Positions 9,864 to 64,000 of a DNA stretch of 64,000 bases are shown piece by piece. The stretch covers positions 124,001-188,000 of the forward strand of contig NZ_LITT01000011.1 of the NCBI RefSeq assembly GCF_001636845.1. Direction: 5' to 3'. The position numbers and the translations under genes were made by a program. The DNA is from Clostridium ljungdahlii (GTDB lineage: Bacteria; Bacillota; Clostridia; Clostridiales; Clostridiaceae). How positions within the stretch are numbered: position 1 is the first letter of the stretch; each line of letters starts with the position of its first letter. The notes under the pieces were generated by a model. The model ran no database searches, had not been told where the DNA came from, and saw nothing but the letters and a program-made list of their open reading frames with translations.

Positions 9864-12269
<2,406 letters not shown>

Positions 12270-31372: not shown

Positions 31373-31386
31373 TTATTAAATAAGAT

Positions 31387-31423
31387 AAAAATGGTGTTCA
31401 AATAAAATTTGAACACCATTTTT
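31387..31423 (+). terminator. Terminator between adhE1 and adhE2
   Basis: AAAAATGGTGTTCAAAT (31387-31403) is perfectly inverted at 31407-31423, ending in T5. adhE2 probably needs its own promoter or read-through. Confidence 0.88.
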
Positions 31424-31528
31424 ATATTTAAAAAGCAAGTATGAATAATAATAGTACAGAAACAAACAATAAAAGTGAGAATCTTGTTTATATTTAACAG
31501 CATAAAAAATAAGAAAGAGGTGTCATTA

Positions 31529-48977: not shown

Positions 48978-50063
48978 TTATTTAGTAGGAGGATCATCAT
49001 TGATGATTCTATTTGCTTCTTCCTCCGAAAGGTCATAATTTAAAAACGTTTTATAAAAATTTGTAGTTTCTTTAACTATATCTATATTAGAAAACTTATC
49101 AGGGTGTATGATTTTTGCTGCCCATTGTATTTGCAATGCTTCTTCTGCACTGTATCTATCCCAGTAAAAAGCTCCATCTGGATTGAAGTATACTTTTGAA
49201 TTCTTAACAGCATTTACTTTTTGCCAGGAAGGATCCTTTAATAAATTGTTTATATTTTTTTTACCATTACTTACTTTCATTAATGTATTGCTGCTTAATA
49301 TTACAATATCTGGATTCCACTTTAATATTTGTTCCATAGATACTTGTTTATTATTTCCTTTTACTTCTGAAGCTGCATTTACTCCACCAGCTGCTTCTAT
49401 CCAGGAATTAATTATTGTATTGTTTCCATCTACAGTTATCGGTGAAAGTGAAGTTACATGGAGAACTTTAGGTCTTTGTTCCTTAGGTATTTTAGACGTT
49501 ATGCTGGTTATAGTATTGAGTTTGCCATCTAAATAGGATACATATTCATCTGCTTTTTTCTTTGAGTCTGGTCCTAAAATATCACCTGTAAGTTTAACGC
49601 ATTTTTTTAAACTATTAAAATCAGTAAAGTTTAATTCTACAGTTGGAATTCCTGAGTCTGATATTTTATTTACATTTTTATCGTTTAAGGGTGTAAACAC
49701 AATGTCAGGTTTTGCTTTTATAAGTTCTTCTGTATTGACACCGTCTGAAGTAAATGCTGTTACTGCATTTTTCATTTGAGGATTTACTTTGTAGAGCCAG
49801 GGCCTTCCCTTTTCTGTGAGAATGGTGGCAACAATTTTATTTCCTTGGCCTAAAATACACAGGACCTCATTATGAGCTTGCCAGGAGTCTCCTATCTTTT
49901 TAATGTTTAAAGGCACGTCCACTTTTCGCCCAGCAGTATCGGTAATCGTTTTCGTCTGTTTGCTTTTTTCACTTGTTTTTTTTGATGTATCACCATTATT
50001 GCATCCGGTTATTAAAAAAATAATTGCAAAAACAGTAATGAGTATAAATTTTAGTTTCTTCAT
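48978..50063 (-). CDS. Lipoprotein binding protein, FepB/BtuF type (SBP 1)
   Basis: A 361-residue class III substrate-binding protein. The signal peptide ends in the lipobox LITGC. The two lobes carry the usual blocks (TDTAGRKVDVPLNIKKI, VNTEELIKAKPDIVFTPL, SMEQILKWNPDIVILSS), joined by a long helix. Such proteins capture siderophores, haem, cobalamin or other metal chelates for FecCD permeases. It is divergent from the MoeA-like operon and shares the 500-base region with it. It is clearly paralogous to the protein at 60340. The ligand is unknown. Confidence 0.85.
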   Translation of the reverse strand: MKKLKFILITVFAIIFLITGCNNGDTSKKTSEKSKQTKTITDTAGRKVDVPLNIKKIGDSWQAHNEVLCILGQGNKIVATILTEKGRPWLYKVNPQMKNAVTAFTSDGVNTEELIKAKPDIVFTPLNDKNVNKISDSGIPTVELNFTDFNSLKKCVKLTGDILGPDSKKKADEYVSYLDGKLNTITSITSKIPKEQRPKVLHVTSLSPITVDGNNTIINSWIEAAGGVNAASEVKGNNKQVSMEQILKWNPDIVILSSNTLMKVSNGKKNINNLLKDPSWQKVNAVKNSKVYFNPDGAFYWDRYSAEEALQIQWAAKIIHPDKFSNIDIVKETTNFYKTFLNYDLSEEEANRIINDDPPTK

Positions 50064-50320
50064 AAGTTAACACATCCTTCTTAAATTATTTAGCTATAGC
50101 TAAGTACCATAAAGATCCATTACAATATGTATTAATTTACAGAGTATATTAAACTTTTAGGGAAAATATGGATTTAATAGTATAATAATGTACTATGTTT
50201 ATTATAATATAATAATTTTTATTACACAATTGGTTTTAAGATTAAACAGATCTAAATATGACATATCATGCTTAGAACAAAATATAACATATACTTTATA
50301 TTATATTTTGTTATGTTTTG

Positions 50321-50349
50321 TTGCAAACTTAATGAGAATAGAATATAAT
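50321..50349 (+). promoter_or_regulatory. Promoter of the MoeA/FecCD operon
   Basis: TTGCAA (50321-50326), 17 bases, TATAAT (50344-50349). The same promoter with the same spacing occurs at 55862-55890, and the flanking bases are similar, so the whole leader was duplicated. Confidence 0.75.
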
Positions 50350-50378
50350 ATAAATATGTTAAAATAGTAATAAATGTT

Positions 50379-50475
50379 ATTACGTAACTGGCGAAATAGG
50401 AATTGACTGCAGGGAGTGTAATATTAAGTTAAGACAGAGCCGAGCGCCTGGGCGATAAAATGTCTGGGCGTTTTT
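50379..50475 (+). promoter_or_regulatory. ZTP (pfl) riboswitch-like leader with terminator
   Basis: The layout fits the ZTP/ZMP class: P1 ATTACG (50379-50384) with TGTAAT (50417-50422), ACTGGCG just inside, GGGAG before the closing strand, then GAGCCGAGCGCCTGGGC. P3 is a 10-bp stem (50444-50453 with 50462-50471) followed by T5, so the aptamer end doubles as a terminator. P2 is weak. ZTP switches usually control folate and purine genes. Here the downstream gene is a MoeA-like protein. Confidence 0.65.
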
Positions 50476-50477
50476 GC

Positions 50478-50521
50478 TTTATCCGATGACTACCTGCTCT
50501 GATACCAAGAACTCTGTTTAT
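50478..50521. mobile_element. Short TTTATCCGAT element
   Basis: Inverted relative to 46523-46712, it matches that element's left 25 and right 22 bases with the middle missing. It lies directly after the riboswitch terminator. Confidence 0.5.
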
Positions 50522-50565
50522 AGAATACTTACATAAATTATGATAGTAATGGGGGATGGTAAGTA

Positions 50566-51783
50566 ATGAAAAACAAAAATGAGGAACATATATCACTACC
50601 TGGAAATGAGGCTCTAAAGAGAATAATGGAAAGATGTGATTTAAAATCACGAATAGAAACAGTATCTCTAATTGATGGATTAGGAAGAGTGTGTGCTTAT
50701 GACATTGCATCTATGAATACACTGCCTAATAGTCTTACTAGTAGGCTAGACGGAATAGCTGTATATTACCATGATTTTGAGAATGGAATACCTGATACTT
50801 CTAGTTGGAAAAGAGGAGTACAATATGAGTTTGCAAATACTGGAATTGGCATTAAAAAGGATTATGATACCGTTATCAGAATAGAAGAAGTTGAAATAGA
50901 CAAATCAGATAACATAAAAATATTAAAGGCACCAACAGTAAAAGGAGAGCTTACTCAGCCTGTAGGACAAAAAATGAGAAAAGGTGATGTACTTGTAAAA
51001 TCCCATACGTTACTTACACCATCCCACCTTGAAATACTTGCTATGGGGGGAATTGATAAGATTGACGTGTTGCAAAAACCTGTAGTAGCTATTATACCTA
51101 CAGGTAACGAATTGGTTCCTATAGGAACACCCTTACCCTTGGGCAAAAATGTTGAATCTAATAGTATAATGATGAGAACAAAAGTTGTTCTTTGGGGAGG
51201 ACAGCCGCTAGTTTATGATATCGTTCCAGATAATCCTAAAAAAATTATAAATACACTTCTTGATGCTTTAAAGAAGGCGGATATTGTAATAATCAATGGA
51301 GGATCATCAAAAGGTACTGAGGACTATAATATAAAAATGTTAGGAGAAGTAGGAGAAGTACTAGCTCATGAAGTAGAACATGGACCAGGCAAACATACTT
51401 CATTTACCGTGGCTTATGGAAAGCCTGTAATTGGCATCGTAGGGCCACCAATCGGAGCCGAGTACACGGTAGATTGGTATATTATGCCTCTTATCAATAA
51501 ATATCTTTTTCAACCAACCATAAAGCCGCAAAGGTTACAAGTAGTTCTTACAAAGCCAATTGTATCAAAGCCTCCGTTCGATTTTTATGTACGTATTATT
51601 GTAAAATATGAGGACGGGCAGTATAAAGGTACGCCAGTAACTGGTCGTGACAGGCCTGTTGTTGAGGGATTGATTCATGCAAATGCTCATTTATGTATAC
51701 CAGGAAATGTTGACGGATATGAAGCAGGAGATAGAGTTGAAGTTGAGCTGCGCTGTCCTATCGAACTTATAACAAGAAATTAA
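50566..51783 (+). CDS. MoeA-like molybdopterin-binding protein
   Basis: A 405-residue protein with MoeA domain order. The N-terminal part has SRLDGIAV in place of the usual AMDGYA. The MPT-binding fold carries IIPTGNELVPIGTPL and IINGGSSKGTEDYN. A C-terminal beta domain ends near RVEVELRCPIEL. MoeA inserts molybdenum or tungsten into adenylylated molybdopterin. This copy diverges at key positions (PTGNEL for PTGDEL), and no other Moco genes are nearby. Being first in a transport operon, it may handle a related metal compound instead. GGGGGATGG lies before ATG. Confidence 0.8.
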   Translation: MKNKNEEHISLPGNEALKRIMERCDLKSRIETVSLIDGLGRVCAYDIASMNTLPNSLTSRLDGIAVYYHDFENGIPDTSSWKRGVQYEFANTGIGIKKDYDTVIRIEEVEIDKSDNIKILKAPTVKGELTQPVGQKMRKGDVLVKSHTLLTPSHLEILAMGGIDKIDVLQKPVVAIIPTGNELVPIGTPLPLGKNVESNSIMMRTKVVLWGGQPLVYDIVPDNPKKIINTLLDALKKADIVIINGGSSKGTEDYNIKMLGEVGEVLAHEVEHGPGKHTSFTVAYGKPVIGIVGPPIGAEYTVDWYIMPLINKYLFQPTIKPQRLQVVLTKPIVSKPPFDFYVRIIVKYEDGQYKGTPVTGRDRPVVEGLIHANAHLCIPGNVDGYEAGDRVEVELRCPIELITRN

Positions 51784-51855
51784 ATTATTAAATAATAAGT
51801 AATAAAAGACAATTTTGTAAGGTGACTAATTATAGTTTAAAAGGAGGACAAGTAT

Positions 51856-52932
51856 ATGTTAGAAGAAATGAAACTGGCTAATTCGTCTGAAAAATCTGTA
51901 TCAAAATCGAAGCAGGAAAGATCAAAAACGACTTATATTATGATAATTATTGCCTTATTACCGATATTTTCTTTTTTCATTTCCTTAGCTATAGGCAGAT
52001 ATCCTATATCAGTATCACAATTCTTTAATGTTATATTATCAAATGTTTCAGGGACGGATAATTCAAAATATGCAACTATTAGCACAGTTTTATTTAACGT
52101 CAGGATTCCTAGGATTTTGTCTGCATTACTGGTTGGAGCAGGCTTAGCTATAGCTGGTTCTGCATATCAGGGCTTATTTAAAAATCCAATGGTATCTCCA
52201 GATATACTTGGAGCTTCTTCTGGTGCGGGATTTGGTGCGGCATTTGGAATACTTTTATCATTTAACAGCTTTGGTGTACAGATTTCAGCATTTCTATTTG
52301 GACTTGCAGCAGTCAGCATAACCTATTTAATAAGTTTAATCATAGGAAGAGGTAATAATGCTACATTAGTACTTGTGCTTACAGGTATGGTTGTTTCAGC
52401 TTTATTCTCTTCTTTTATTTCTATAACAAAATATGTGGCTGATCCCTATGACAAACTCCCGGCTATAACTTTCTATTTGATGGGAGGATTATCTTCTGTC
52501 ACTATGAAAGACATCAAAATATTATCGATACCATTTGTAATAGGAATTATACCGTTAATTTTATTGAGGTGGAAACTTAATGTGCTTTCCTTTGGTGATG
52601 AAGAATCAAAATCTTTAGGTGTAGATACTTCAAAGTTAAGAATAGTTATAATACTTTGTTCAACTCTAATTACTGCTGGAGCTGTATCAATCAGTGGAAT
52701 TATTGGCTGGATAGGACTTGTAATACCCCATATAGCAAGAATGTTTGTGGGACCTAATTTTAAAGCCTTATTGCCTGCTTCCTTGTTGATTGGAGGTACA
52801 TTCCTCTTATTAGTTGATGACATAGCTAGATGTGCTTTTTCTATGGAGATTCCATTAGGAATTCTTACATCATTAATTGGAGCACCATTTTTTATTTATC
52901 TTTTGATTAAAGGAAGGAGAGGATGGATATGA
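51856..52932 (+). CDS. FecCD-family ABC transporter permease
   Basis: A 358-residue permease with about nine or ten helices. Family blocks: VRIPRILSALLVGAGLAIAGSAYQGLFKNPMVSPDILGASSGAG, and GIIGWIGLVIPHIARMFVG near the coupling region. It is the only FecCD permease in the window, although five FepB-type lipoproteins are present. Immediately after its stop, the sequence resembles the start of the ATPase gene at 54966, suggesting a lost ATPase. Confidence 0.93.
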   Translation: MLEEMKLANSSEKSVSKSKQERSKTTYIMIIIALLPIFSFFISLAIGRYPISVSQFFNVILSNVSGTDNSKYATISTVLFNVRIPRILSALLVGAGLAIAGSAYQGLFKNPMVSPDILGASSGAGFGAAFGILLSFNSFGVQISAFLFGLAAVSITYLISLIIGRGNNATLVLVLTGMVVSALFSSFISITKYVADPYDKLPAITFYLMGGLSSVTMKDIKILSIPFVIGIIPLILLRWKLNVLSFGDEESKSLGVDTSKLRIVIILCSTLITAGAVSISGIIGWIGLVIPHIARMFVGPNFKALLPASLLIGGTFLLLVDDIARCAFSMEIPLGILTSLIGAPFFIYLLIKGRRGWI

Positions 52933-52957
52933 AATTAGTAATGAGAGGGTTAAATAT

Positions 52958-53272
52958 ATGGAGATAAAAGAAGTAATAAATAATTATTGGTCAAAAAGAG
53001 CTGATGAATTTAGTGAATGCCGTCTTAAAAGATCTTGAAGGTTTTCAGCGTAAAGTGTGGACAGATATAATTAGGGAAGTAGTTCCTGATGGGATGTGGA
53101 TGTGTTGATTCAAAATGGTATTAATAAAATAACTATTAACACAGAAATTAGTAAGCGTGTATATATGGATGATCAATCTTTAAAAACAGAAAACAGTGAA
53201 ACAACTTATTGCAAAAGCAAAAATGACTCTGATTCGCAGATGTTTATGGTATGTGCTGCAAAAGATAGATAA
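52958..53272 (+). pseudogene. Class I SAM-dependent methyltransferase, decayed
   Basis: The pieces are MEIKEVINNYWSKRADEFSE, then in another frame LEGFQRKVWTDIIREVVPDG, then DVLIQNGINKITINTEISK and a tail ending QMFMVCAAKDR before TAA at 53270. The first two pieces match the opening of class I methyltransferases up to the glycine-rich motif I, but that motif and the catalytic core are deleted. At least one frameshift and one large deletion are needed to explain it. It suggests the ancestral locus also methylated its product or ligand. Confidence 0.7.
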
Positions 53273-53315
53273 AGTAAAATTAAGATTTTAATAAAGTAAG
53301 GGGATAGATTACATT

Positions 53316-53849
53316 ATGAAAAAAATTTTTTTTACTGGTGAGAAGGGGATAGGTAAATCTACACTATTAGAAAAAGTTATTAAAAATATAGATTGCTCTA
53401 TAGGCGGATTTATTCAAGAAAAAGAGTTTACAGAAGGAATGAAAATTTTTAAAGTTATTTCACTTTATAGTATGAATGATAATTATATTATTGGCAGATA
53501 TGATGTAAAAAAGGAAAAAATGGATATAGATATGGATATATTCAATGTTATATCTAATGATATACTTTTAAAAAGCTTATATAATAGAGATTTAATAGTA
53601 CTTGATGAATTAGGTTTTATGGAGGAAAATGCACCATTATTCAAAGATACCATTTTTAAAATACTTAATAGTGATAAACCTGTTATAGGAGTATTAAAAG
53701 AATGTGATGGAGATTTTGTACAGAAAATAGCAAAGAGAGAAGACGTACAAGTAATTAGAATTAATAAAAATAATAGAAATTTTGTGAAAGGTAAAATTCT
53801 TCAGATTTTACGAGAAAATGATGTAAGGCTGAAGAAAAATATAAGTTAA
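53316..53849 (+). CDS. THEP1-like P-loop NTPase
   Basis: A 177-residue nucleoside-triphosphatase-type protein: Walker A GEKGIGKST at residues 8-16, Walker B LIVLDELGFME, and a C-terminal KGKILQILREN. THEP1-like enzymes hydrolyse NTPs in vitro; the role in vivo is unclear. Its position within the transport/cofactor locus suggests work on a nucleotide-linked cofactor or chaperone, which is inference. Confidence 0.75.
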   Translation: MKKIFFTGEKGIGKSTLLEKVIKNIDCSIGGFIQEKEFTEGMKIFKVISLYSMNDNYIIGRYDVKKEKMDIDMDIFNVISNDILLKSLYNRDLIVLDELGFMEENAPLFKDTIFKILNSDKPVIGVLKECDGDFVQKIAKREDVQVIRINKNNRNFVKGKILQILRENDVRLKKNIS

Positions 53850-53872
53850 AAAAATCATGGGGGGAAGAAAAA

Positions 53873-54913
53873 ATGAAAAAAATATCTAAAATTTTAATTC
53901 TATTACTAATAGTATGTACCTTTGGAGCGTGTGGAAAAAGCACAACTTCTACAAGCACAACTACTGCAGATAGTAATAAAAAAATTACTGTTACTGATGG
54001 ATTAGGAAGAAAAGTAGAACTATCCAAGCCAGCTGAAAAGATATTAAGTGCATATCCTATAGCAACACAAATATTATGTGCCTTAGGGGAACAAAATAAT
54101 ATTTTGGGTGTAGATGGAAAAATTGTAAAAAACCCATTAGGTTCTTCACCGAAGGCAGGTGCAAGTAAATTAGCTGCTTCTAAAGGCAACAATGAGTTAA
54201 ATGTAGAACAAGTAGCAGCTGCTAAACCAGATATTGTTTTTATACAGAAAAAGGATAAACAAGTTATACCAAACCTTGAGAAATCTAATATTAAAGTTTT
54301 TGTTGTAAATGCGGAGGACCTTGATAAATTAAAATCTACTGTCAAAGATTTAGGAATAGTCACTGGCAAAGAAAAAAAAGCAGATGAATTTATGGATTAT
54401 TATACAAAAAAGTTAGATTCTATTAATAATAAACTTAAAGGTGTAGATCAAAAAAATAAGCCTAAAGTTTATATGGCAGGAGGAAGTATGTATTTAACCC
54501 CAGGAAAGAATATGTTTCAAAATTCATTCATTGAATTAGGCGGCGGAATAAATGTGGCAGGTTCTTTAAGCAAAAGTGCTAAGTGGAGTGAAATATCTGC
54601 AGAGCAGTTAATTAGCTGGAATCCTGATATAATAATTCTCACACAATATTCTGGAGTAAAACCTCAGGATGTACTTAATAATGCTGGCTTAAAAGATATA
54701 AATGCTGTAAAAAATAAAAAAGTTTATTTGATACCTTCAAAAATGAGTTCATGGGATATGCCTTGTCCACAGACGATTTTAGGAATAATGTGGTTAAGTA
54801 CAAAAACAAATCCTGAAGTATTTAAAGATACAAACATAACAAAAGAAGTAGATGATTTTTATCAAAAATTTTATGGAACTACTTATACAAAGCTTGGTGG
54901 TACTTTAGACTAA
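53873..54913 (+). CDS. Lipoprotein binding protein, FepB/BtuF type (SBP 2)
   Basis: A 346-residue class III binding protein. Signal peptide with lipobox FGAC, then Ser/Thr linker, KITVTDGLGRKVELSKPAEKIL, NVEQVAAAKPDIVFIQ and ISAEQLISWNPDIIILTQY. GGGGGAAG lies before ATG. It directly precedes the ABC ATPase, so it is the most likely partner of the FecCD permease. Confidence 0.88.
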   Translation: MKKISKILILLLIVCTFGACGKSTTSTSTTTADSNKKITVTDGLGRKVELSKPAEKILSAYPIATQILCALGEQNNILGVDGKIVKNPLGSSPKAGASKLAASKGNNELNVEQVAAAKPDIVFIQKKDKQVIPNLEKSNIKVFVVNAEDLDKLKSTVKDLGIVTGKEKKADEFMDYYTKKLDSINNKLKGVDQKNKPKVYMAGGSMYLTPGKNMFQNSFIELGGGINVAGSLSKSAKWSEISAEQLISWNPDIIILTQYSGVKPQDVLNNAGLKDINAVKNKKVYLIPSKMSSWDMPCPQTILGIMWLSTKTNPEVFKDTNITKEVDDFYQKFYGTTYTKLGGTLD

Positions 54914-54965
54914 AATAGAAACGTCCTAAATGTCATAATTTAATAAAAGGGAGGAGAGGACGGAT

Positions 54966-55747
54966 ATGAAGTTAGAAATAAAAAATGTTAGTTGTGGTTA
55001 TAGTACAAAAGTTGTTGTAAAAGATATATCCATGAGTGTGAGTTCAGGAGAAATATTGTGTTTATTGGGGCCAAATGGTGTAGGCAAAACTACTTTTTTA
55101 AGACTATATTGGGTTTTTTAAAGCTTAAAGGTGGAGAAATACTTTTAGACGGAGAAAATATACATAACTGGTCTAGAAAACAGTTGGCTAAAAATATTGG
55201 TTATGTACCACAGGCTCATACACCTCCTTTTCCCTACAAGGTTTTTGACGTAGTATTGATGGGCAGAACTGCTCACCTTTCAATGTTTTCTTCTCCTACA
55301 AAAGAGGATAAAGATATTGCTGAGGAGGCTATAGATATCTTAAATATATCCTATTTAAAAGAAAAGATATATACGGAAATAAGCGGTGGGGAAAGGCAAA
55401 TGGTTTTAATTGCTAGAGCACTTGCACAATGTCCTAAAATGCTCATAATGGATGAACCAACTTCTAATTTGGACTTCGGAAATCAAATTAGAGTATTAGA
55501 TCAAATAAAAAAGCTTTCTAAAAGAGGATTGGCAGTTGTTATGACTTCACATTATCCTAATCATGCATTTATATGCTCTACGAAAGTGGCGTTTATGCAA
55601 AGAAACAATGTATTTACAGTAGGTAATGTAGATGAAGTTGTTACAGAGGATATGCTTAAAGAAGCATATGGTATTGATGTAAAGATTATTAGCATACCTA
55701 ATTCAAATGGAGAAGAGATGAAAGCTTGTGTACCTGTGATCAATTAA
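54966..55747 (+). pseudogene. FecE/BtuD-type ABC ATPase, frameshifted
   Basis: The natural start [18 protein letters not shown] at 54966 leads to Walker [11 protein letters not shown], then the frame ends at a TAA near 55120. From the T-tract at 55094-55099 the other frame continues: [21 protein letters not shown], the signature SGGERQMVLIARALA, Walker B LIMDEPTSNLD and SHYP. One T more or three less in the tract restores a 260-residue ATPase of normal length. All other motifs are intact, so this is a fresh mutation or a sequencing error. It would power the FecCD permease. Confidence 0.88.
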
Positions 55748-55861
55748 AATGCATGATAGAATAATTAAATAAAATTATCAATATATAAATAAATATAAAT
55801 CAATATAAATTAACTAAAATAATATATATTATATTTTTTAAATATGTTATGTTATGTTTTG
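55748..55861. other. AT-rich spacer before the second leader
   Basis: No ORF or clear terminator between the ATPase and the second promoter. It resembles the AT-rich sequence upstream of the first leader. Confidence 0.4.
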
Positions 55862-55890
55862 TTGCAAATTTAACAAAAATATAATATAAT
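55862..55890 (+). promoter_or_regulatory. Promoter of the second cofactor operon
   Basis: TTGCAA (55862-55867), 17 bases, TATAAT (55885-55890), the same boxes and spacing as at 50321-50349. Confidence 0.75.
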
Positions 55891-55919
55891 ATAAATATGT
55901 TATATATGTAATAGTATTT

Positions 55920-56016
55920 ATTACACAACTGGCGATAATAGAATTGACCAGAAATAATGTGATAGTAATTTAAGACAAACAAGAGCGCCTGGACCATATA
56001 ACGTCTAGGTGCTTTT
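55920..56016 (+). promoter_or_regulatory. Degenerate ZTP-like leader with terminator
   Basis: A paralogue of the leader at 50379: P1 ATTACA (55920-55925) with TGTGAT (55958-55963), CTGGCG (55929-55934), and P3 GCGCCTGGAC (55985-55994) with 56003-56012, followed by T4. The conserved GGGAG before the P1 closing strand is missing (AGAAATAA instead), and GCCGAGCG is reduced to AAGAGCG. Ligand binding may be altered or lost, although the terminator hairpin is intact. Confidence 0.55.
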
Positions 56017-56137
56017 GTTATATAAAAATACTTATATAAATCATAATAAAAATAGATTGAGACATTGCTACGAGAATGTTTAAATCTCTAAAATATTGAA
56101 GATTAAATTTTTTGCATGCAGAAAGGGAGAAGTACAC

Positions 56138-57142
56138 ATGTTTGGAGAAGATGTATCCATAAGAAAAACTAATTTTTTAGCTCATATTGTATGTCCTATG
56201 CAGCAAATCTTCAGAAGAAACTTTCAAATGAAGCTTAATGAATACAAAAAGTTAACAGGAAAAACATTCAAATGCCATATATCTGTTGGATGTGGTGGAA
56301 GCGATAAGTATGATGACATCTGGAAGGCAAAAAGTATAGAAGATTTTCCTGACATTGTGGCTTCTGTTACATTTGGAAGTTTTTTTAGAAAGGATTTCAT
56401 AGAGAAATTTGTCCATAAGGGATATTTTAAATCAGTAATAGGAAAAAATGTAAATAAGGATTTTGTAAGAGCAGGACTAGAAGATCCTGATGGTAATTAT
56501 TCAGTTTACTCTGTATTTCCACTTGTAATGCTTGTAGATAAGAACAAATTGAGTAATCTTCCAATGCCGAAAAAATGGAGTGATCTTTTAAAGCCTATAT
56601 ATAAAAATAATATAATTGTTTCAGGGTCACAAAAGGGTATAGGGGAGCTTCTTCCTTTGTACATATATAAAGATTATGGTGAAAAAGGACTTCAAATGTT
56701 GGCATCTAACATAAAGGAAGGGTGGCATGCTTCAAAAATGTCTAAAGTAGCAGGAACTTTAAATAATGAAGGGGCTGCAATATATGTGCTTTCATGGTTT
56801 TTTGCTAAAATGTGTCCAAGAAAAGAGTATGTTTCTGTAGTTTGGCCTGAAGATGGAGCAATTGCAGAACCTATATATATGCTTGTAAAAAAGTCAAAAA
56901 TTAATGAACTGAAGGAAATAATAAATTTTATTATAGGGAGTGAATATGGGCAAAAATGCGCTTCATATTATTTTCCTTCGGCAAATGCTGCAATAGATAA
57001 TAATTTACCCCAGAATGCGTCTTTTAAGTGGTTAGGGTGGGAATATATTAAGCGCAATGACATTTATGAGGTAAAAGAACATGTAAGAGATAAAATTATG
57101 CAGTACTACAAATTAAAAAATAGGGTTAAGGAGGGATTTTAA
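56138..57142 (+). CDS. Leaderless type-2 (iron/PotD-like) binding-protein homologue
   Basis: About 334 residues. The fold pattern is that of extracellular class F binding proteins (HISVGCGGSDKYDDIWKAK, FPDIVASVTFGSFFRKDF, PMPKKWSDLLKPIYKNNIIVSGSQKGIGELL, VVWPEDGAIAEPIYMLVKK). There is no signal peptide, so it is cytosolic. ATG 56138 follows AAAGGGAGAAG; an ATG at 56096 has no ribosome site. It contains several Cys (C18, C44, C51-type positions), possibly for metal. It is the first gene after the second leader and may carry a metal or oxyanion inside the cell. Confidence 0.72.
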   Translation: MFGEDVSIRKTNFLAHIVCPMQQIFRRNFQMKLNEYKKLTGKTFKCHISVGCGGSDKYDDIWKAKSIEDFPDIVASVTFGSFFRKDFIEKFVHKGYFKSVIGKNVNKDFVRAGLEDPDGNYSVYSVFPLVMLVDKNKLSNLPMPKKWSDLLKPIYKNNIIVSGSQKGIGELLPLYIYKDYGEKGLQMLASNIKEGWHASKMSKVAGTLNNEGAAIYVLSWFFAKMCPRKEYVSVVWPEDGAIAEPIYMLVKKSKINELKEIINFIIGSEYGQKCASYYFPSANAAIDNNLPQNASFKWLGWEYIKRNDIYEVKEHVRDKIMQYYKLKNRVKEGF

Positions 57143-57143
57143 A

Positions 57144-58256
57144 ATGAAAAGTAGGATAAGTAAAAGAGCTATAGTAGTTGTTATGGCTATAGTATTTGTC
57201 CTAACTATGTTTTTTGGATGTGGAAATAAAAAAAGTTCTGCAGTCAGTGAAACAGAAAAAGTAAGTATTACAGATATGGCAGAAAGAAACGTTAAAATTC
57301 CAGCTGATATAAATAAGGTATTGTCAGTATCTCCTGCGACTACAACAGCAGTGTACATGCTTGCTCCTGAAAAGTTGGTAGGCTGGAATATGAAATTTTC
57401 ATCAGATAATGCAAAATACATACTCAAAAAGTACCAAAACCTTCCTATGGTAGGTTCTTGGTCTGGAAAAAATGATATCAACTATGAGACATATATATCC
57501 ATGAAGCCTGATATAGTTATGGACAACTCTGAAAACAATTCTATAACTAATGTGAGGCAGCAAAAACTTGGAAGCATACCTGTGGTAGTTGTACATGATT
57601 TGGATACCCAGAATTTTGTCCCATATATTACGTTTATGGGAAAGGTTTTAGGAGCAAAGCAAAAGGCAGATAAATTGATATCTTTTTATAACAATGTAAA
57701 GAAAAAAGTAGAGAGTAAAGTTTCAAATATACCAGATGAGCAGAAAGTAAAGGTTTATTATGCTGAAGGACCTAAAGGTCTACAAACTGATTATGACTCA
57801 GGGCCATCAGCTTTTAAAACCAATTACGCTAGTTTAAAGAACAATCAACACACTCAACTTATATATCTTTGTGGAGGACTAAATGTTGCAAGAGGCACTG
57901 GAATTAATAACACCTCAGAAGTTTCAATAGAAAAGGTACTTCAGTGGAATCCAGATGTTATTATAACAAATAATCCTCAATTTTATAAAAGTGTTTACTC
58001 TGACAGCTCCTGGCAAAATATAAAGGCTGTAAAAGAACATAGAATATACTTAACACCTACAAAACCTTTTAATTGGGTTGATAGACCACCAGGAATTAAT
58101 ACAATAATTGGAATACCATGGACAGCTAAAATGTTATATCCTGATAAATTCGAGGATATGGATTTAAATAAACTTACCAAAGAGTTTTATTCAGAATTTT
58201 ATCATATGAACCTTACTGACAGTGATATTAATGTTTTACTTAATAATCAACAATAA
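57144..58256 (+). CDS. Lipoprotein binding protein, FepB/BtuF type (SBP 3)
   Basis: A 370-residue class III binding protein with lipobox FFGC. Core blocks: SITDMAERNVKIPADINKVL, ISMKPDIVMDNSEN, VSIEKVLQWNPDVIITNNP, and a Trp/Asp-rich ligand-facing segment FNWVDRPPGINTIIGIPW, which resembles SBPs for tungsten/molybdenum-type or haem ligands only loosely. Its start is one base after the previous stop, so it is translationally coupled to the leaderless homologue. Confidence 0.87.
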   Translation: MKSRISKRAIVVVMAIVFVLTMFFGCGNKKSSAVSETEKVSITDMAERNVKIPADINKVLSVSPATTTAVYMLAPEKLVGWNMKFSSDNAKYILKKYQNLPMVGSWSGKNDINYETYISMKPDIVMDNSENNSITNVRQQKLGSIPVVVVHDLDTQNFVPYITFMGKVLGAKQKADKLISFYNNVKKKVESKVSNIPDEQKVKVYYAEGPKGLQTDYDSGPSAFKTNYASLKNNQHTQLIYLCGGLNVARGTGINNTSEVSIEKVLQWNPDVIITNNPQFYKSVYSDSSWQNIKAVKEHRIYLTPTKPFNWVDRPPGINTIIGIPWTAKMLYPDKFEDMDLNKLTKEFYSEFYHMNLTDSDINVLLNNQQ

Positions 58257-58282
58257 ATTTATGAAGGTAGGTGCTTGAAAGT

Positions 58283-59404
58283 ATGAAAAATAAGAGATTT
58301 AGAACTAGCGCGTGGGTTTTGGCAGTAGTTATGACACTGTCAACATTTACTGTAGGATGTGGAGAGCAAAAGTCTTCAACAAAAACAACTTCTCAATCTA
58401 CAAGTAATGTTCAAAATAATAACGGGACACGTAGTGTTACAAATTTAGATGGATCTACTGTAGTTGTTCCTAATAAGGTAAACAAAATAGCTGTAACATT
58501 TGGTCCAGCTTATGAAAAAGTAGTTTTATTGGGAGATGAAGATAAAATTGTAGCAGATGGAGATTATCATATTAACGGTTGGCCTTGGTCCAATAAGATA
58601 TATAAGCGATTGAATCAAGTACATGGAATTCCCAATGTTCATTCTAAATTAAATGTAGAAGAACTTATGAAATATAAGCCAGACGTTGTATTTCATTTTT
58701 CAAAACCAGATGAAATACAAAAAATTAATGATGCTAAAATGGTAGGGATACCTTCAGTATCTACAGGAAAGTTAGAAGATACAAAAAATATGGTTACATT
58801 TTATGCAAAAGTTCTTGGAAAGAAGGAGGAGAAGATTGCAGAAGAATATTCTAAATATTTTGATGAAAAATTAAAAATGGTAACAGATATTACTTCACAA
58901 ATTTCAGATAATGAAAAACCTACAGTATATTTTGCTAGCCAAAAGTTATTGTGGACTTCAGGAAAGGGTTCGGATATTCCAGAAGTAATTAATTTGGCAG
59001 GCGGTAAATGTGTAAATAAAGATGTAAAAGGAGCCAATCAGGCTCAGGTTGGAATTGAACAGTTAATTCAATGGAATCCTCAATATATATTTGTTGACCA
59101 TGCAGGTTCTTCAGGAAATGAACCAGCAGAAAGTGTTATAAAGAAAATGATTAATGATGATCGGTATAAAAAGATTTCTGCAGTAGCAAATAATAAAGTT
59201 TATATTGTACCTACAGGAGTTTTTTTCTGGGATTCAGGGGTTCAGAAGATATTGATGGTTATGTGGATGGCAAAACAACTTCATCCAGATAAGTTTAAAG
59301 ATTTAGATATGACGAAAGAAGTTAAACAATTTTATTCAAAATTTTTTAAATATAACCTTACGGATGAAGAAACTAAAAAAATACTAGATCATTTGAATCC
59401 TTAA
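58283..59404 (+). CDS. Lipoprotein binding protein, FepB/BtuF type (SBP 4)
   Basis: About 373 residues with lipobox TVGC, then SVTNLDGSTVVVPNKVNKIAV, NVEELMKYKPDVVFHFS, VGIEQLIQWNPQYIFVDHAG. ATG 58283 gives a normal signal peptide (MKNKRFRTSAWVLAVVMTL); the in-frame GTG at 58271 would lengthen it without benefit. It sits between SBP 3 and the radical-SAM gene. Confidence 0.87.
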   Translation: MKNKRFRTSAWVLAVVMTLSTFTVGCGEQKSSTKTTSQSTSNVQNNNGTRSVTNLDGSTVVVPNKVNKIAVTFGPAYEKVVLLGDEDKIVADGDYHINGWPWSNKIYKRLNQVHGIPNVHSKLNVEELMKYKPDVVFHFSKPDEIQKINDAKMVGIPSVSTGKLEDTKNMVTFYAKVLGKKEEKIAEEYSKYFDEKLKMVTDITSQISDNEKPTVYFASQKLLWTSGKGSDIPEVINLAGGKCVNKDVKGANQAQVGIEQLIQWNPQYIFVDHAGSSGNEPAESVIKKMINDDRYKKISAVANNKVYIVPTGVFFWDSGVQKILMVMWMAKQLHPDKFKDLDMTKEVKQFYSKFFKYNLTDEETKKILDHLNP

Positions 59405-59426
59405 TAAAAAGAGAGGGTAATGAATA

Positions 59427-60260
59427 ATGAATAATGTTTTAAAGGAGCTATTTGAATTAGAACCTAGTACTTTATTTCAGAGAGCACAGGAAATAGCTAG
59501 GACAAAGAAAAAAGTTTATTGCTCCCCCAATTTAATTAATAGCGTTTGCACTACAAAACCTGCTTGCAGGCATTGTAAATGGCAGAGTTTCAAAACAGTG
59601 AATCCTAATTTTTATGGAGAGAGGAGTTTAGAAGAAGTAAAAAATTGTACAAAAAAACTTGTTAAGGCAGGTGTGGATAGGGTGTTTATGCCTTCAGGTT
59701 GGATGGGATACAAAGTGCCACAGTATTACTATAGCTATGTACAATCAGTTAAAGAAAATTCTAACATGGAAGTGTATGGGCTTTTTGGAGCTATTGATAA
59801 AGAAAGTATTCAAAATTTAAAAAAATCAGGAATGGATGGTTATCTCTGTGGATTAGAATCTCCAAATGAAGAAATATATAAGAAATTTAGACCAGGAGGA
59901 GATACTTTAAAGGACCGTTTATATACTTTAAATACAGCTAAAGAACTTGGACTAAAGATATGGAGTGGATTTCTTGTAGGATTTGGAGAAACAGAAGAGG
60001 ATGATGCAAGAGGATTGGAGATTCTAAAAAAACTAGATGTAGATTCTTTATCTATACTTCCATTTACACCATTTGTTAATACAGATATGATGAAAGATAA
60101 TCCAGCGAATCCTTTTGAATGGGCAAGAGTAATGGCAGTAGCTAGAAATTATATGGTGAAACCAGATTTATTTTCTGATAATACTGAAGGATTTTATTAT
60201 GAATACGGAATTCTAGGTGGAAGCAATGGATTTTATATATTACCTAAAATTAAAGTGTAA
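59427..60260 (+). CDS. HmdB-like radical SAM protein (CX5CX2C)
   Basis: A 277-residue radical SAM barrel of the BioB/HydE/HmdB type. The cluster Cys are Cys41, Cys47 and Cys50 (CTTKPACRHC), a CX5CX2C motif in place of CX3CX2C. The SAM-binding GLESPNEEIYKKFRPGG and SGFLVGFGETEEDDARGLE blocks follow. CX5CX2C is reported for HmdB, the radical SAM protein of [Fe]-hydrogenase cofactor synthesis. The C-terminus is shorter than in HydE or BioB. No hmd gene is visible, so it probably acts on a different cofactor or ligand. GAGAGGG precedes ATG. Confidence 0.82.
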   Translation: MNNVLKELFELEPSTLFQRAQEIARTKKKVYCSPNLINSVCTTKPACRHCKWQSFKTVNPNFYGERSLEEVKNCTKKLVKAGVDRVFMPSGWMGYKVPQYYYSYVQSVKENSNMEVYGLFGAIDKESIQNLKKSGMDGYLCGLESPNEEIYKKFRPGGDTLKDRLYTLNTAKELGLKIWSGFLVGFGETEEDDARGLEILKKLDVDSLSILPFTPFVNTDMMKDNPANPFEWARVMAVARNYMVKPDLFSDNTEGFYYEYGILGGSNGFYILPKIKV

Positions 60261-60279
60261 TCAAATTCAATTTTTGTAA

Positions 60280-60311
60280 AAGCCACAAAATTTGATTATG
60301 TTTTGTGGCTT
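60280..60311 (+). repeat. Intercistronic hairpin
   Basis: AAGCCACAAAA (60280-60290) pairs perfectly with 60301-60311. No T tract follows, so it is more likely an mRNA processing or stability element than a terminator; it separates the radical-SAM gene from SBP 5. Confidence 0.6.
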
Positions 60312-60339
60312 GAGCGAATCGAAGGGAATGGATATAAAT

Positions 60340-61425
60340 ATGTTTAAAAAATTAAAAGCAAAAAATCTAATTACAGGATTAGTTATTTTATGCATGATTT
60401 TAGTTACAGGTTGTGGAAATAAGAGTTCATCACAAAGTGTAAGTTCAAATAAACAATCACAAAGCACTAAAACTATTGTAGATATGGATGGAAATTCAGT
60501 TAAAGTTCCTGTGAAGGTTACTAAAGTGGCAACTTCTTGGCCTGGATTTTGCAATGCACTTTTTACAGTTAGTGGCAGAAATAATAAAATAGTTGCAACT
60601 TCTCCTGCTATTAAGAAAAGCTATCCTTGGGCTATTAAATTGTATCCACAACTTAAAAATATATCTTACCCATTTAACGGAGAAACGACTAATATTGAGC
60701 AATTAGTAAAGTCTAAGCCAGATGTGGCATTTTTACGTAAAGGAGACAGTATACAAAAAGTTAAAGAAGCAGGTATACCTGTAGTTATGATTGATTATAA
60801 GCATAATAGCATAGAAGACATAATAAATAGTGTTGTTATAACAGGTAAAGTGCTTGGAGAAAATGAATATAAAAAAGCAGAACAGTATAAAGATTATTTC
60901 AACAAAAATATAAGTAAAGTATCTTCTATAACGTCTAAAATACCTGAAAATGAAAGACCTAAGGTAATTTATCTATCTGTGCAAAATGAAAGCATTTCAG
61001 TATGGGGTAAAAACATGCCTCAAAATGAAACTATAAATATGGTAGGAGCAATAAATGAAGCAGCTAATGAGATAGATGGATATAAAGAAGTTTCCATGGA
61101 GCAAATGCTTAAGTGGAATCCAGATGAGATAATAGTAGATGGAAATCTTAAAAAAAGTAAAGTAGCAAAGAATCCTTCATGGAACCAATTAAAGGCAGTA
61201 AAAGACAATAAAGTATTTGTAAGTCCTAGTGGCATTTTTTCATGGGCAAGACTTGGAACAGAATCAGCACTGCAATTATTATGGATGGCTAAGAACATAT
61301 ATCCCCAAAAATTTCAAGATATTGATATTGCAAAAGAAACAAAATATTTTTACAAAAATTTCTTTGGATATGAATTAAAGGATGATGAAGTTAAAGAAAT
61401 ACTAAATTGTGAAAATCCAATTTAA
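60340..61425 (+). CDS. Lipoprotein binding protein, FepB/BtuF type (SBP 5)
   Basis: About 361 residues with lipobox VTGC. Blocks: TIVDMDGNSVKVPVKVTKV, NIEQLVKSKPDVAFLRKG, SMEQMLKWNPDEIIVDGN. Its start region and length match SBP 1 at 48978 closely (SW..., NNKIVAT, KLYPQLKN), so these two are the nearest pair. ATG 60340 gives a normal signal peptide, though GAAGGGA is about 14 bases away; ATG 60328 is too close. Confidence 0.86.
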   Translation: MFKKLKAKNLITGLVILCMILVTGCGNKSSSQSVSSNKQSQSTKTIVDMDGNSVKVPVKVTKVATSWPGFCNALFTVSGRNNKIVATSPAIKKSYPWAIKLYPQLKNISYPFNGETTNIEQLVKSKPDVAFLRKGDSIQKVKEAGIPVVMIDYKHNSIEDIINSVVITGKVLGENEYKKAEQYKDYFNKNISKVSSITSKIPENERPKVIYLSVQNESISVWGKNMPQNETINMVGAINEAANEIDGYKEVSMEQMLKWNPDEIIVDGNLKKSKVAKNPSWNQLKAVKDNKVFVSPSGIFSWARLGTESALQLLWMAKNIYPQKFQDIDIAKETKYFYKNFFGYELKDDEVKEILNCENPI

Positions 61426-61467
61426 ACGAGTATAAAAAAATATGTTTGAAGGGTAAGTGTTTGAAAA

Positions 61468-62163
61468 ATGAAATTAATTACCGTTTCAGGTCCACCTTCA
61501 TCTGGGAAGACATCTGTAATTTTAAAAACTATACAGTATTTGAAGTTAAAAAAGGTAAATATAGGTGTAATAAAATTTGATTGTCTTTCTACATTTGATG
61601 ACATTCTATATAAAAAAGCAGACATTCCAGTTAAAGTGGGACTTTCTGGCAATCTGTGCCCTGATCATTTTTATATAAGTAATATTAATGATTGTGTAAG
61701 TTGGGGATGTAAAAACAATCTGGATTTATTAATTAGTGAAAGTGCAGGATTATGTAATAGATGTTCACCCCATATAAAAGGTGTCCTTGCCATATGTGTA
61801 ATAGATAACCTTTCTGGAATAAATACACCTAAAAAAGTGGGCCCTATGCTAAAATTAGCTGACATTATAGTTATAACTAAAGGAGATATTGTATCTCAAG
61901 CAGAAAGAGAGGTATTTTATTTTAAGGTAAAGCAATCTAATCCAAAAGCTTCAATTTTTTGTGTGAATGGTATAACGGGACAGGGAGCTTATGATTTAAG
62001 TGAGAGTTTAAAAAGTGCCTCAGAAGTAGATAGCTTAGAAGGAAAAATGTTAAGGTTCACTATGCCCTCTGCACTTTGTCCTTATTGTGTAGGTGAAAGG
62101 AAGATAGGCAAGGATTATGAAAAGGGAAATGTAAAAAAAATGAATTTGGGGGATGCCATATAA
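61468..62163 (+). CDS. HypB/UreG/CobW-like metallochaperone GTPase
   Basis: A 231-residue SIMIBI-class GTPase. The P-loop GPPSSGKTS is at residues 8-16, the second metal-type motif is SESAGLCNRCSPH, and ITKGDIVS is the NKxD-like base-recognition segment. The C-terminus carries a second Cys pair, CPYCVGERK. HypB and UreG deliver nickel with GTP; CobW-type proteins deliver zinc or cobalt. The two CxxC pairs suggest metal or Fe-S binding. Its stop overlaps the next start (TAATG), linking it to the ABC ATPase. Confidence 0.8.
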   Translation: MKLITVSGPPSSGKTSVILKTIQYLKLKKVNIGVIKFDCLSTFDDILYKKADIPVKVGLSGNLCPDHFYISNINDCVSWGCKNNLDLLISESAGLCNRCSPHIKGVLAICVIDNLSGINTPKKVGPMLKLADIIVITKGDIVSQAEREVFYFKVKQSNPKASIFCVNGITGQGAYDLSESLKSASEVDSLEGKMLRFTMPSALCPYCVGERKIGKDYEKGNVKKMNLGDAI

Positions 62164-63185
62164 TGAAGGATAAAGTTATATCAATTCCTATAAAAGACTT
62201 AATAAAAGAAAATTCATATATAGAAGATTTTTTTATATCAATCGGACTGAAAAATTATAATCATGATTGCACATTAGAGCAAATAGTAGAAACACTTACA
62301 GATGAATTTATTGATGACTGCGGACTTGGTAGAGAAGAGATATTAAACCATTTCCAATTGTTTGTTGAGAAAATGGATGAGTTAAAATTAAAATCAGAAA
62401 GTCACATTGAATATATAACTATTATTGGAGGACATGATAAGTCGGGCAAAAATGAAAATATAAGTATCATAGTAAAGCCTGGAGAAATCATATCTTTAGT
62501 TGGACCCACAGGATCTGGCAAAAGTAGATTATTAGCGGATATTGAATGTATTGCACAGAAGGATACTCAAACGGGTAGGCAGGTACTCATAAATGGGAAA
62601 GTACCTGAAATAGATAAAAGATTTTCCATGGACAATAAGCTAGTGGCACAGCTTTCTCAAAATATGAATTTTGTAATGGATTTAACGGTTAAGGAATTCA
62701 TTACAATGCACGCAGAGAGCAGGATGATAGATAAAATTGAAGATACGGTTAAAGCAATAATTGAATGTGCCAATGAACTTGCCGGTGAAAAGTTTTCTTA
62801 TGATGTACCTGTTACACAATTGAGCGGAGGTCAATCAAGGTCACTGATGGTTGCGGATACAGCGCTATTAAGTATATCTCCTATAGTTTTAATTGACGAA
62901 ATAGAAAACGCAGGTATTGATAGAGGAAAAGCAATAGAATTACTAGTGAAAAAAGAAAAAATAGTTTTTATGTCTACCCATGATCCTATATTGGCACTTA
63001 TGGGAAATAAGAGGATTGTTATAAAAAATGGAGGAATAAATAAAATAATTGAGACTAATTGTGCTGAACGAAAAAATCTTCAGCTGCTTAAAAAGTTTGA
63101 TACAAAAATGACAAAACTTAGAGGTACAATACGCAGCGGAGAAGTTATTGATTTTGATGTAAGTGAATATTTATGTGATTTATAA
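62163..63185 (+). CDS. Stand-alone ABC ATPase with DUF1858-like N-terminus
   Basis: A 340-residue protein. Residues about 1-75 (IPIKDLIKENSYIEDFFISIGL...TLEQIVETL) resemble DUF1858, as in the small protein at 41262. The ABC domain then has Walker A GPTGSGKSR, Q-loop LSQNMN, signature LSGGQSRS, Walker B IVLIDEIENAG and the switch His in MSTHDP. The helical region lacks the coupling sequence of transporters, and no permease follows. It may energise cofactor insertion or reduction, like component A2 (AtwA) does for methyl-CoM reductase; this is analogy only. Confidence 0.75.
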   Translation: MKDKVISIPIKDLIKENSYIEDFFISIGLKNYNHDCTLEQIVETLTDEFIDDCGLGREEILNHFQLFVEKMDELKLKSESHIEYITIIGGHDKSGKNENISIIVKPGEIISLVGPTGSGKSRLLADIECIAQKDTQTGRQVLINGKVPEIDKRFSMDNKLVAQLSQNMNFVMDLTVKEFITMHAESRMIDKIEDTVKAIIECANELAGEKFSYDVPVTQLSGGQSRSLMVADTALLSISPIVLIDEIENAGIDRGKAIELLVKKEKIVFMSTHDPILALMGNKRIVIKNGGINKIIETNCAERKNLQLLKKFDTKMTKLRGTIRSGEVIDFDVSEYLCDL

Positions 63186-63206
63186 ATCAAAAACGGGGGA
63201 GAAATT

Positions 63207-63965
63207 ATGTGGGAAATATATGATGAGTTAATAAAATTAATACCTAAGGATTTGGTTATAAAGGATTTTGCAGCAGGATTAAACTGGTTTTTAGTGGAAT
63301 CTGTTGGAACTGGGATGGCAATGACGCCTAAAGAGGGAAATTCTTATTTGCAGATGGCGGGTAATGTGGTTGGAATGAAAGTCTGTGAGGCGGCAAAACT
63401 TATAAAATCTTGGAGCAATTATGAAGCAGCTTTAGGTCTAGCAGCAATTAATTCTGTAATTAATACTCCTTATAATGTTGAAAAACTTAGTGGTATTAAG
63501 GTGAATGAACAGCCTAAAATTAGTGATTTTGAATATATGAAAGATAAAATAAAAGGTAAAAAAGTAGCCGTTATAGGTCATTTTCCTGATTTGGAGCCTT
63601 TAGCTGAGATATGCAAACTTTCTATACTGGAAAGAATTCCTCAAAAGGGAGATTTTCCAGATCCATCTTGTGAGTATCTACTACCTGAGCAGGATTTTGT
63701 GTTTATAACAGGAACTACCCTGATAAATAAAACCCTGCCAAGACTTCTTCAGCTTAGTAAAAATGCTTATGTTACTGTAGTAGGACCCAGCACACCTCTT
63801 ACTAAGTGTTTATATAAATATGGCATAAATATGCTGGCAGGTACTGTAGTCATGGAACGCAATAGAGTATGGAATTTAATTAGGGAAGGTGGATGCAGAG
63901 AATTCTTCAATAATGGAGCATTGATGGTTAAGGTACCTAAAGATAAAATAGGACAAAGGAGATGA
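63207..63965 (+). CDS. DUF4213/DUF364 putative metal-chelating protein
   Basis: A 252-residue protein. Residues about 1-90 match DUF4213 (AAGLNWFLVESVGTGMAMTP, AALGLAAINSVINTPYN). Residues about 110-245 match DUF364 (KKVAVIGHFPDLEPL, FITGTTLINKTLPRLL, VTVVGPSTPLTKCLYKYGINMLAG). The family is described as a heavy-metal chelation domain and is often beside radical-SAM or Fe-transport genes in anaerobes. A GGGGGAG site precedes ATG. Function unproven. Confidence 0.85.
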   Translation: MWEIYDELIKLIPKDLVIKDFAAGLNWFLVESVGTGMAMTPKEGNSYLQMAGNVVGMKVCEAAKLIKSWSNYEAALGLAAINSVINTPYNVEKLSGIKVNEQPKISDFEYMKDKIKGKKVAVIGHFPDLEPLAEICKLSILERIPQKGDFPDPSCEYLLPEQDFVFITGTTLINKTLPRLLQLSKNAYVTVVGPSTPLTKCLYKYGINMLAGTVVMERNRVWNLIREGGCREFFNNGALMVKVPKDKIGQRR

Positions 63966-63970
63966 ACTTT

Positions 63971-64000
63971 ATGAATAGCGAAAAGAAAGCTTTGGAATTT
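63971..64000 (+). CDS. Start of an unidentified CDS (partial)
   Basis: ATG at 63971 follows AAGGAG at ideal spacing, and the ten codons visible are open (MNSEKKALEF). It starts 5 bases after the DUF364 stop, so it continues the operon. Too short to identify. Confidence 0.6.
   Translation, partial: MNSEKKALEF

Follow-up and report, generated by a model that had tools for sequence, protein, structure and literature searches.

The window analysed here comprises 64,000 nucleotides of the Clostridium ljungdahlii genome (G000:C1:124001-188000; 4.36 Mb in 65 contigs). It ends in a gene cluster that an initial annotation had proposed as a locus for metal-complex uptake and cofactor processing, bounded at 48978..64000. 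Our analysis indicates that the probable role of these genes is to take up a scarce metal and to transfer it within the cell through an undescribed three-protein machine, composed of an apparently leaderless substrate-binding protein (SBP6), a six-cysteine GTPase, and an ATP-binding cassette (ABC) ATPase without a permease (ABC2). Uptake combined with GTP/ATP-driven intracellular metal handling is the best reading of the locus, its cassette being conserved; the remodelling by a radical S-adenosylmethionine (SAM) protein that had been proposed along with it did not hold. All genes named previously were found as open frames between 48978 and 63965, and the locus continues for about 3.6 kb beyond the window end. 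Features lie on the plus strand unless stated otherwise.

A conserved cassette of SBP6, GTPase, and ABC2

The conserved heart of the locus is formed by the SBP6 copy of the window (SBP6a, 56096..57142; its true start may be downstream), the GTPase (61468..62163), and ABC2 (62163..63185). Relatives of the GTPase number at least 543 among the 589 pattern matches listed. We collected the loci of the best 80 of the 543 by similarity to the window protein, 26 loci from genomes of the class, and one Fusobacterium locus. Five loci for which the open reading frame set contained no GTPase, and one duplicate, were removed; 101 distinct GTPase neighbourhoods remained, of which 95 contain ABC2 and 92 contain SBP6. 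The GTPase, the ABC ATPase, and SBP6 are thus conserved together, and the refuting condition set beforehand, a lack of such conservation, does not apply to them. Four loci encode the GTPase and ABC2 as a single fused protein of 507-520 residues (L060:9992-11536, L063:3310-4836, L067:8419-9942, and L083:175-1737). Near the fused genes lie nif-type genes and a gene for an AnfO-like protein, assigned by PF09582 on the L067 copy. No description of the cassette was found in the open-access literature searched, the NCBI product names of its proteins being left aside.

The GTPase matches PF02492 (E 6.9e-10), and its best fold matches are UreG (4hi0, E 1.5e-11) and HypB (2hf8, E 5.2e-11). It scores below the curated cut-offs of TIGR00073 (HypB; 51.8 versus 121.2) and TIGR00101 (28.5 versus 204.2). 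Six cysteines (C64, C96, C99, C110, C204, and C207) are invariant in both alignments of 27 sequences. ABC2 (PF00005) retains the P-loop, LSGGQ, and LIDE residues across 95 aligned sequences; its N-terminal segment of 99 residues has no Pfam match and belongs to no assigned family. An additional zinc-ribbon protein of about 80 residues is encoded in 22 loci, usually right after ABC2 (e.g., L125:11734-11979), and the one copy tested is weakly HypA-like (E 0.0011, below the cut-off).

SBP6, of the SBP_bac_6 family, adopts the fold of the ferric-binding proteins FbpA and FutA, in which a tyrosine pair provides the iron ligands. The corresponding pair of SfuA aligns to Met-Pro in the SBP6 profile, and in 93 aligned SBP6 sequences no tyrosine is conserved to 85%. 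Read by eye, residues 5-8 of SBP6a (FFAC) loosely match a lipobox without a hydrophobic stretch, and Cys8 is kept in one of the 93 sequences. A second SBP6 of the locus, SBP6b, shows no lipobox pattern when read by eye. A DUF1858 domain is present on two other SBP6 proteins tested; the Pfam scan gave no DUF1858 match for SBP6a.

A distant GTPase-ABC2-SBP6 set was also seen at L054:9612-18053, followed by NifH-like, two nitrogenase-like, and FepB-FecCD-FepC genes.

Neighbouring genes and the GTPase tree

Relatives of the three proteins often adjoin nitrogen-fixing and molybdenum (Mo) genes. Neighbours were scored with seed proteins taken from the loci, and ModA, ModB, a molybdate-type regulator, or MoaA was counted as Mo-type. 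Across 105 loci (L057 and L088 left out), Mo-type neighbours were found in 17, nitrogenase-type in 16, the hybrid-cluster protein (Hcp) in 14, FecCD with FepB in 13, a methyltransferase in 13, and DUF364 in 10. The controls were 54 stretches, mostly from the same genomes, at positions chosen by hand rather than at random; the first 14 were too few to show enrichment, and 40 more were added. They gave Mo-type 1, nitrogenase-type 0, Hcp 0, FecCD with FepB 1, methyltransferase 1, and DUF364 0. For the methyltransferase, FecCD with FepB, and DUF364, the contrast over all 105 loci is modest (p 0.01-0.02, Fisher tests that ignore kinship); the conservation of these genes with the GTPase is weaker than that of the cassette.

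The ModA and ModB calls exceed curated cut-offs. Among the nitrogenase neighbours, NifD of the Mo type lies above its cut-off in L115 and just below it in L067, the Fe-only AnfD was found in Pelosinus fermentans (L076), and VnfD of the V type in L097 with DUF364 nearby. Several molybdopterin (Moco) genes lie beside the cassette in L060. Hcp lies within 7 genes in 14 of the 101 neighbourhoods, and a Crp-type regulator in 15. As judged from gene order, these neighbours suggest Mo-, V-, and Fe-nitrogenase, ModAB, and Hcp as candidate clients of the cassette.

In a GTPase tree of the 101 neighbourhoods, a single branch splits 31 rows with Mo, nif, FecCD with FepB, or DUF364 neighbours, the window included, from 14 rows with Hcp. 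This corresponds to one change, compared with a mean of 12 after shuffling, and none of 500 shuffles did as well; the branch has a support of 97 in the Shimodaira-Hasegawa-like approximate likelihood-ratio test. Of the 44 loci on the window's side, 15 have Mo-type neighbours, 14 nitrogenase-type, 11 FecCD with FepB, 8 DUF364, and none Hcp. The window itself belongs to a starred group of 28 rows, 18 of them Mo-type, 10 unlabelled, and none with Hcp. In the whole tree 56 of the 101 rows are unlabelled, and L107, with Hcp and one Mo-type match, was counted as Hcp. It is a quick tree with long branches and many weak forks, in which single placements are unsure.

The window genome also carries four further nitrogenase-like gene sets with PF00148 matches (L185 and L186 on G000:C36, and L187 on G000:C63). 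Read by eye, hydrogenase-maturation-like genes neighbour one of these sets, and radical SAM genes neighbour two.

Co-occurrence across genomes

Hcp (TIGR01703, E<=1e-100) is encoded in 177 of 391 genomes of the class and in all 22 that are GTPase-positive (Fisher p 1.3e-8). Among 79 named genomes or records, 69 have it (42/50 and 27/29), Fusobacterium vincentii included. MoaA over its cut-off occurs in 15/22 GTPase-positive and 3/38 negative genomes, and PF00148 in 13/22 and 3/38, respectively, all 22 positives and 38 of the 369 negatives being tested; in the negative genome G603, MoaA misses the cut-off by 3 bits. Of the three markers tested, Hcp is the one that best accompanies the GTPase. 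As universal partners of the family, a nitrogenase-like client, Mo as the metal, and Hcp as client were each rejected on these counts (13/22, 15/22, and 69/79).

Importer genes and the remainder of the locus

The window encodes one FecCD permease (51856..52932; PF01032 E 1.3e-87) and five FepB-type lipoproteins, in agreement with the earlier family assignments. FepB0 (48978..50063, minus strand; PF01497 E 3.3e-32; lipobox ITGC) is divergent from the other genes, and its copies in two genomes of the same genus, G129 and G131, are 97-98% identical. FepB1 (53873..54913; E 3.4e-37) and FepB2 (57144..58256; E 6.5e-19) were likewise assigned by PF01497. FepB3 (58271..59404; 29-36% identical to the other FepBs) and FepB4 (60292..61425; a 94% copy in G129) carry the lipobox pattern and were assigned by 27-40% identity to other FepBs. 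A sixth, FepB5, lies past the window end. All six have the loose lipobox pattern, and their divergence (mutual identity 27-63%) fits several binding specificities served by one permease.

The matching FepC-type ATPase (54966..55747) had been overlooked. It is frameshifted at the Walker A motif and split between two frames in tblastn, so that the importer has its permease and lipoproteins with a frameshifted ATPase. Intact FepC of 93% identity is present in G129 and G131, and the single frameshift could stem from an error of the draft assembly. Between the permease and the NTPase_1 protein (53316..53849; PF03266 E 1e-31), tblastn with an intact 266-residue Clostridium magnum protein detected a decayed SAM methyltransferase in three pieces (52958..53266). 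A MoeA-like protein (50566..51783; PF03453, PF00994, and PF03454) and a DUF4213-DUF364 protein (63207..63965; PF04016 E 1.1e-36; 3l5o E 1.3e-50) complete this set. Beyond position 64000 (L003:463-4135) follow a methyltransferase, SBP6b, a second DUF364 protein, and FepB5, and downstream of the locus a MerR-type gene (by reading), then a ferredoxin and an [FeFe]-hydrogenase.

MoeA-like genes of 94% identity are present in G129, on one contig, and in G131. The order in G129 is FepB0, MoeA, an extra FepB, FecCD, NTPase, FepB1, intact FepC, SBP6a, FepB2, FepB4, GTPase, ABC2, two DUF364 proteins, and FepB5; the radical SAM gene, FepB3, the methyltransferase, and the second SBP6 are absent from this place. 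In G131 the genes after FepC differ from those of the window. Outside the genus, the closest synteny among the fetched loci was found in C. magnum DSM 2767 (L080), with identities of 76% for FepB0, 66% for NTPase, 80% for the methyltransferase, 77% for FecCD, 82% for FepC, and 56% for FepB1. Its importer block ends in ModA and a Mo_ABC_porter permease, both over their cut-offs, and part of an ATPase, while SBP6, GTPase, and ABC2 lie divergently beside the block. Judged by gene order, this adjacency is the strongest single pointer to Mo or tungsten (W) as the likely metal of the window's own locus.

Further observations concern the flanking DNA. Directly 3' of the locus, L003:5489-8246 encodes the ferredoxin, the [FeFe]-hydrogenase, which is compact, and a P-loop-like protein that carries the motif GEGCGVC and matches no Pfam family, likewise in G129. 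Window positions 10001-12000, inside an 801-residue frame, have a G+C content of 49%, compared with about 30% window-wide. Two adjacent aldehyde/alcohol dehydrogenase frames occupy 29297-34159, of which the first matches aldehyde dehydrogenase over a short stretch only.

A radical SAM gene outside the conserved set

The protein encoded at 59427..60260 (PF04055) is a HmdB/BioB-like radical SAM protein with the motif CTTKPACRHC, that is CX5CX2C, which we take to be the HmdB-type motif. Its best NCBIfam match is HmdB (TIGR03957), at 96.6 bits versus a cut-off of 320.9. A first scan of genome contigs with this protein gave no match, and no relative was found in 205 other genomes of the family (E<=1e-30) or in 397 others of the phylum (E<=1e-25). 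Of 115 plasmid matches, the 20 that were listed either are BioB, have no annotation, or fall where no feature is recorded. The gene is also absent from the orthologous stretches of G129 and G131. These absences place radical SAM remodelling outside the conserved system and rule the gene out as its core; by the same comparison, it is an addition in the window strain or a loss in the others.

ZTP-type leaders

A ZMP/ZTP riboswitch aptamer (50374..50460; RF01750, 41.4 bits, gathering score 39), with an intrinsic terminator to about 50475, heads the operon upstream of the MoeA-like gene and had been overlooked. The pseudoknot (4/4) and terminator (10/10 pairs) are complete, and the terminator shares P3. 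A diverged leader at 55917..56020 has a strong terminator (10/10 pairs) and a fold z of -6.86 (55905-56030); it lacks GGGAG and has no ZTP match in Rfam at E<=5. In five leaders examined the terminator pairs 10/10 throughout and the pseudoknot 4/4 in four and 3/4 in G131; the G129 leader has one G-C to A-U exchange. Rfam scores fall in the orthologues (30.9 bits in G131; no RF01750 match at E<=1 for the first G129 leader) while pairing is retained, indicating that the switch architecture is kept and the aptamer drifts. ZTP sensing by the window copy is, from its predicted structure, plausible and may be changing. Each of 13 genomes of the genus has a stronger ZTP copy, and the frame downstream of it reads by eye as PurH in L142, L143, L148, L150, and L153.

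The accessible text of PMC7266159 places ZTP riboswitches with purine and 10-formyl-tetrahydrofolate genes, and that of PMC7337938 describes one studied member as a terminator-type ON switch. The idea that ZTP leaders are general in the family was rejected. No leader reached the gathering score in L031-L038 or in 17 further loci on the window's tree side, and L032 and L181 had none at E<=1. When 27 fetched loci were scanned by pattern together with L003 and the window, the window copy turned up along with three fuzzy matches judged implausible. No Moco riboswitch was among the Rfam matches for the window and the scanned loci. Formate dehydrogenases need Mo or W. The window genome encodes three over the cut-off, two with an in-frame TGA, and their need for Mo or W is a possible reason for ZTP control of a metal locus.

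Proposed function and alternatives

Our leading reading, to which we give somewhat less than even confidence, is import of a scarce metal, most probably Mo or W as an oxyanion or chelate, with vanadium (V) possible, followed by its transfer within the cell. Several FepBs would feed such a cargo to the one FecCD permease. In the cytosol, fold, motifs, and the gene fusion point to an SBP6 with no apparent export signal that may hold the metal species, a six-cysteine GTPase that would receive and release it, and an ABC2 without a membrane partner that may power the opening of SBP6 or the release from it, in a direction of transfer that we infer. The methyltransferase and DUF364 proteins could synthesize or remove an organic ligand; one client would be the MoeA-like protein, and others, by analogy, may be nitrogenase cofactor and molybdopterin enzymes. 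The ZTP-type leader might raise the metal supply when 10-formyl-tetrahydrofolate runs short.

Several points weigh against this reading. No ModA or ModB was found among the scanned genes of the locus itself, and the permease's own ATPase is frameshifted in the window strain. The locus set is not an even sample, kinship and genome size are uncorrected, and 58 of the 105 loci have none of the Mo-type, nitrogenase-type, Hcp, FecCD with FepB, or DUF364 neighbours. Six of the 22 positive class genomes (G071, G451, G709, G730, G751, and G771) lack both MoaA and PF00148 by the cut-offs used, the best MoaA matches of the last four reaching 182-190 of 284 bits, and F. vincentii has the cassette and Hcp with neither MoaA over the cut-off nor PF00148. 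These genomes show that the family is not tied to Mo or nitrogenase everywhere. Iron, moreover, is at least as good a fit to the FepB and FecCD families and to the FbpA-like fold. An iron system, in which the FepBs bind several ferric chelates and the cassette delivers iron in the cytosol to iron-rich enzymes such as nitrogenases and Hcp, is nonetheless rather unlikely, as SBP6 lacks the tyrosine pair and the ModA/ModB and Moco neighbours would be left unexplained.

The association with Hcp allows a different account, in which the cassette repairs or builds unusual Fe-S clusters in nitrosative stress, Hcp was its original client, and the window copy is a co-opted relative. The presence of Hcp in every GTPase-positive class genome and in most named genomes, its proximity and that of Crp-type regulators in some loci with no Hcp in the controls, and the DUF1858 domains argue for it. 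However, the Hcp loci lie across the tree branch from the window's, SBP6a lacks DUF1858, anaerobic life-style is a confounder, and ten of the 79 named genomes, the isolate Plasticicumulans acidivorans and otherwise records titled as metagenome-assembled genomes, have no Hcp; we regard this account as improbable. Slightly more doubtful still is that the window strain carries the locus as a remnant, largely idle and in decay, as the FepC frameshift, the methyltransferase pieces, the second leader without GGGAG, and the different genes after FepC in G131 might suggest. The other named frames are open, the GTPase and ABC2 keep their conserved residues, the leaders keep their terminator pairing, and FepC, intact in G129, may be broken here by a draft error. 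That the radical SAM protein makes the organic ligand of an [Fe]-hydrogenase-like cofactor assembled by the cassette, as its CX5CX2C motif and best match to HmdB would allow, is very improbable given the low score, and the absence of the gene from the searched genomes and orthologous stretches excludes the general form of this idea. Extended beyond the window, the scarce-metal reading would make SBP6-GTPase-ABC2 an undescribed, widespread cytosolic machine with one branch for Mo-, V-, or Fe-nitrogenase or Moco and another for Hcp, its supply in the host set by ZTP; in this full form the proposal is speculative and more likely wrong in some part than right.

Relation to known systems

Like the HypA-HypB and UreG nickel GTPases, the window GTPase has the GTPase fold and the CobW/HypB/UreG Pfam domain, and 22 loci add the small zinc-ribbon protein, weakly HypA-like in the copy tested. 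It differs in its partners, an ABC ATPase and a protein of the SBP fold, and in scoring below the HypB cut-off. Unlike FbpA and FutA, SBP6 shows no clear export signal by eye, no conserved tyrosine pair, and no membrane partner. The FecCD, FepC, and FepB families are shared with type II importers, of which MolBCA is one for molybdate; here, in contrast, five to six binding proteins accompany one permease and a cytosolic cassette lies in the operon. The first leader resembles ZTP (pfl) riboswitches in Rfam score, pseudoknot, and terminator, and differs in heading a MoeA-like metal locus. DUF364 stands beside ABC importers here as in the rare-metal loci of PMC2954201, whose accessible part names iron, tungstate, vanadium, and molybdate neighbours and contains no mention of the GTPase-ABC2-SBP6 cassette.

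How Mo, V, or the metal of hybrid clusters travels from importer to cofactor assembly in anaerobes is, to our knowledge, poorly known. A conserved trio present in hundreds of genomes, with two branches told apart by their neighbours, would offer concrete genes to test, and it would be relevant to efforts to move nitrogenase into new hosts.

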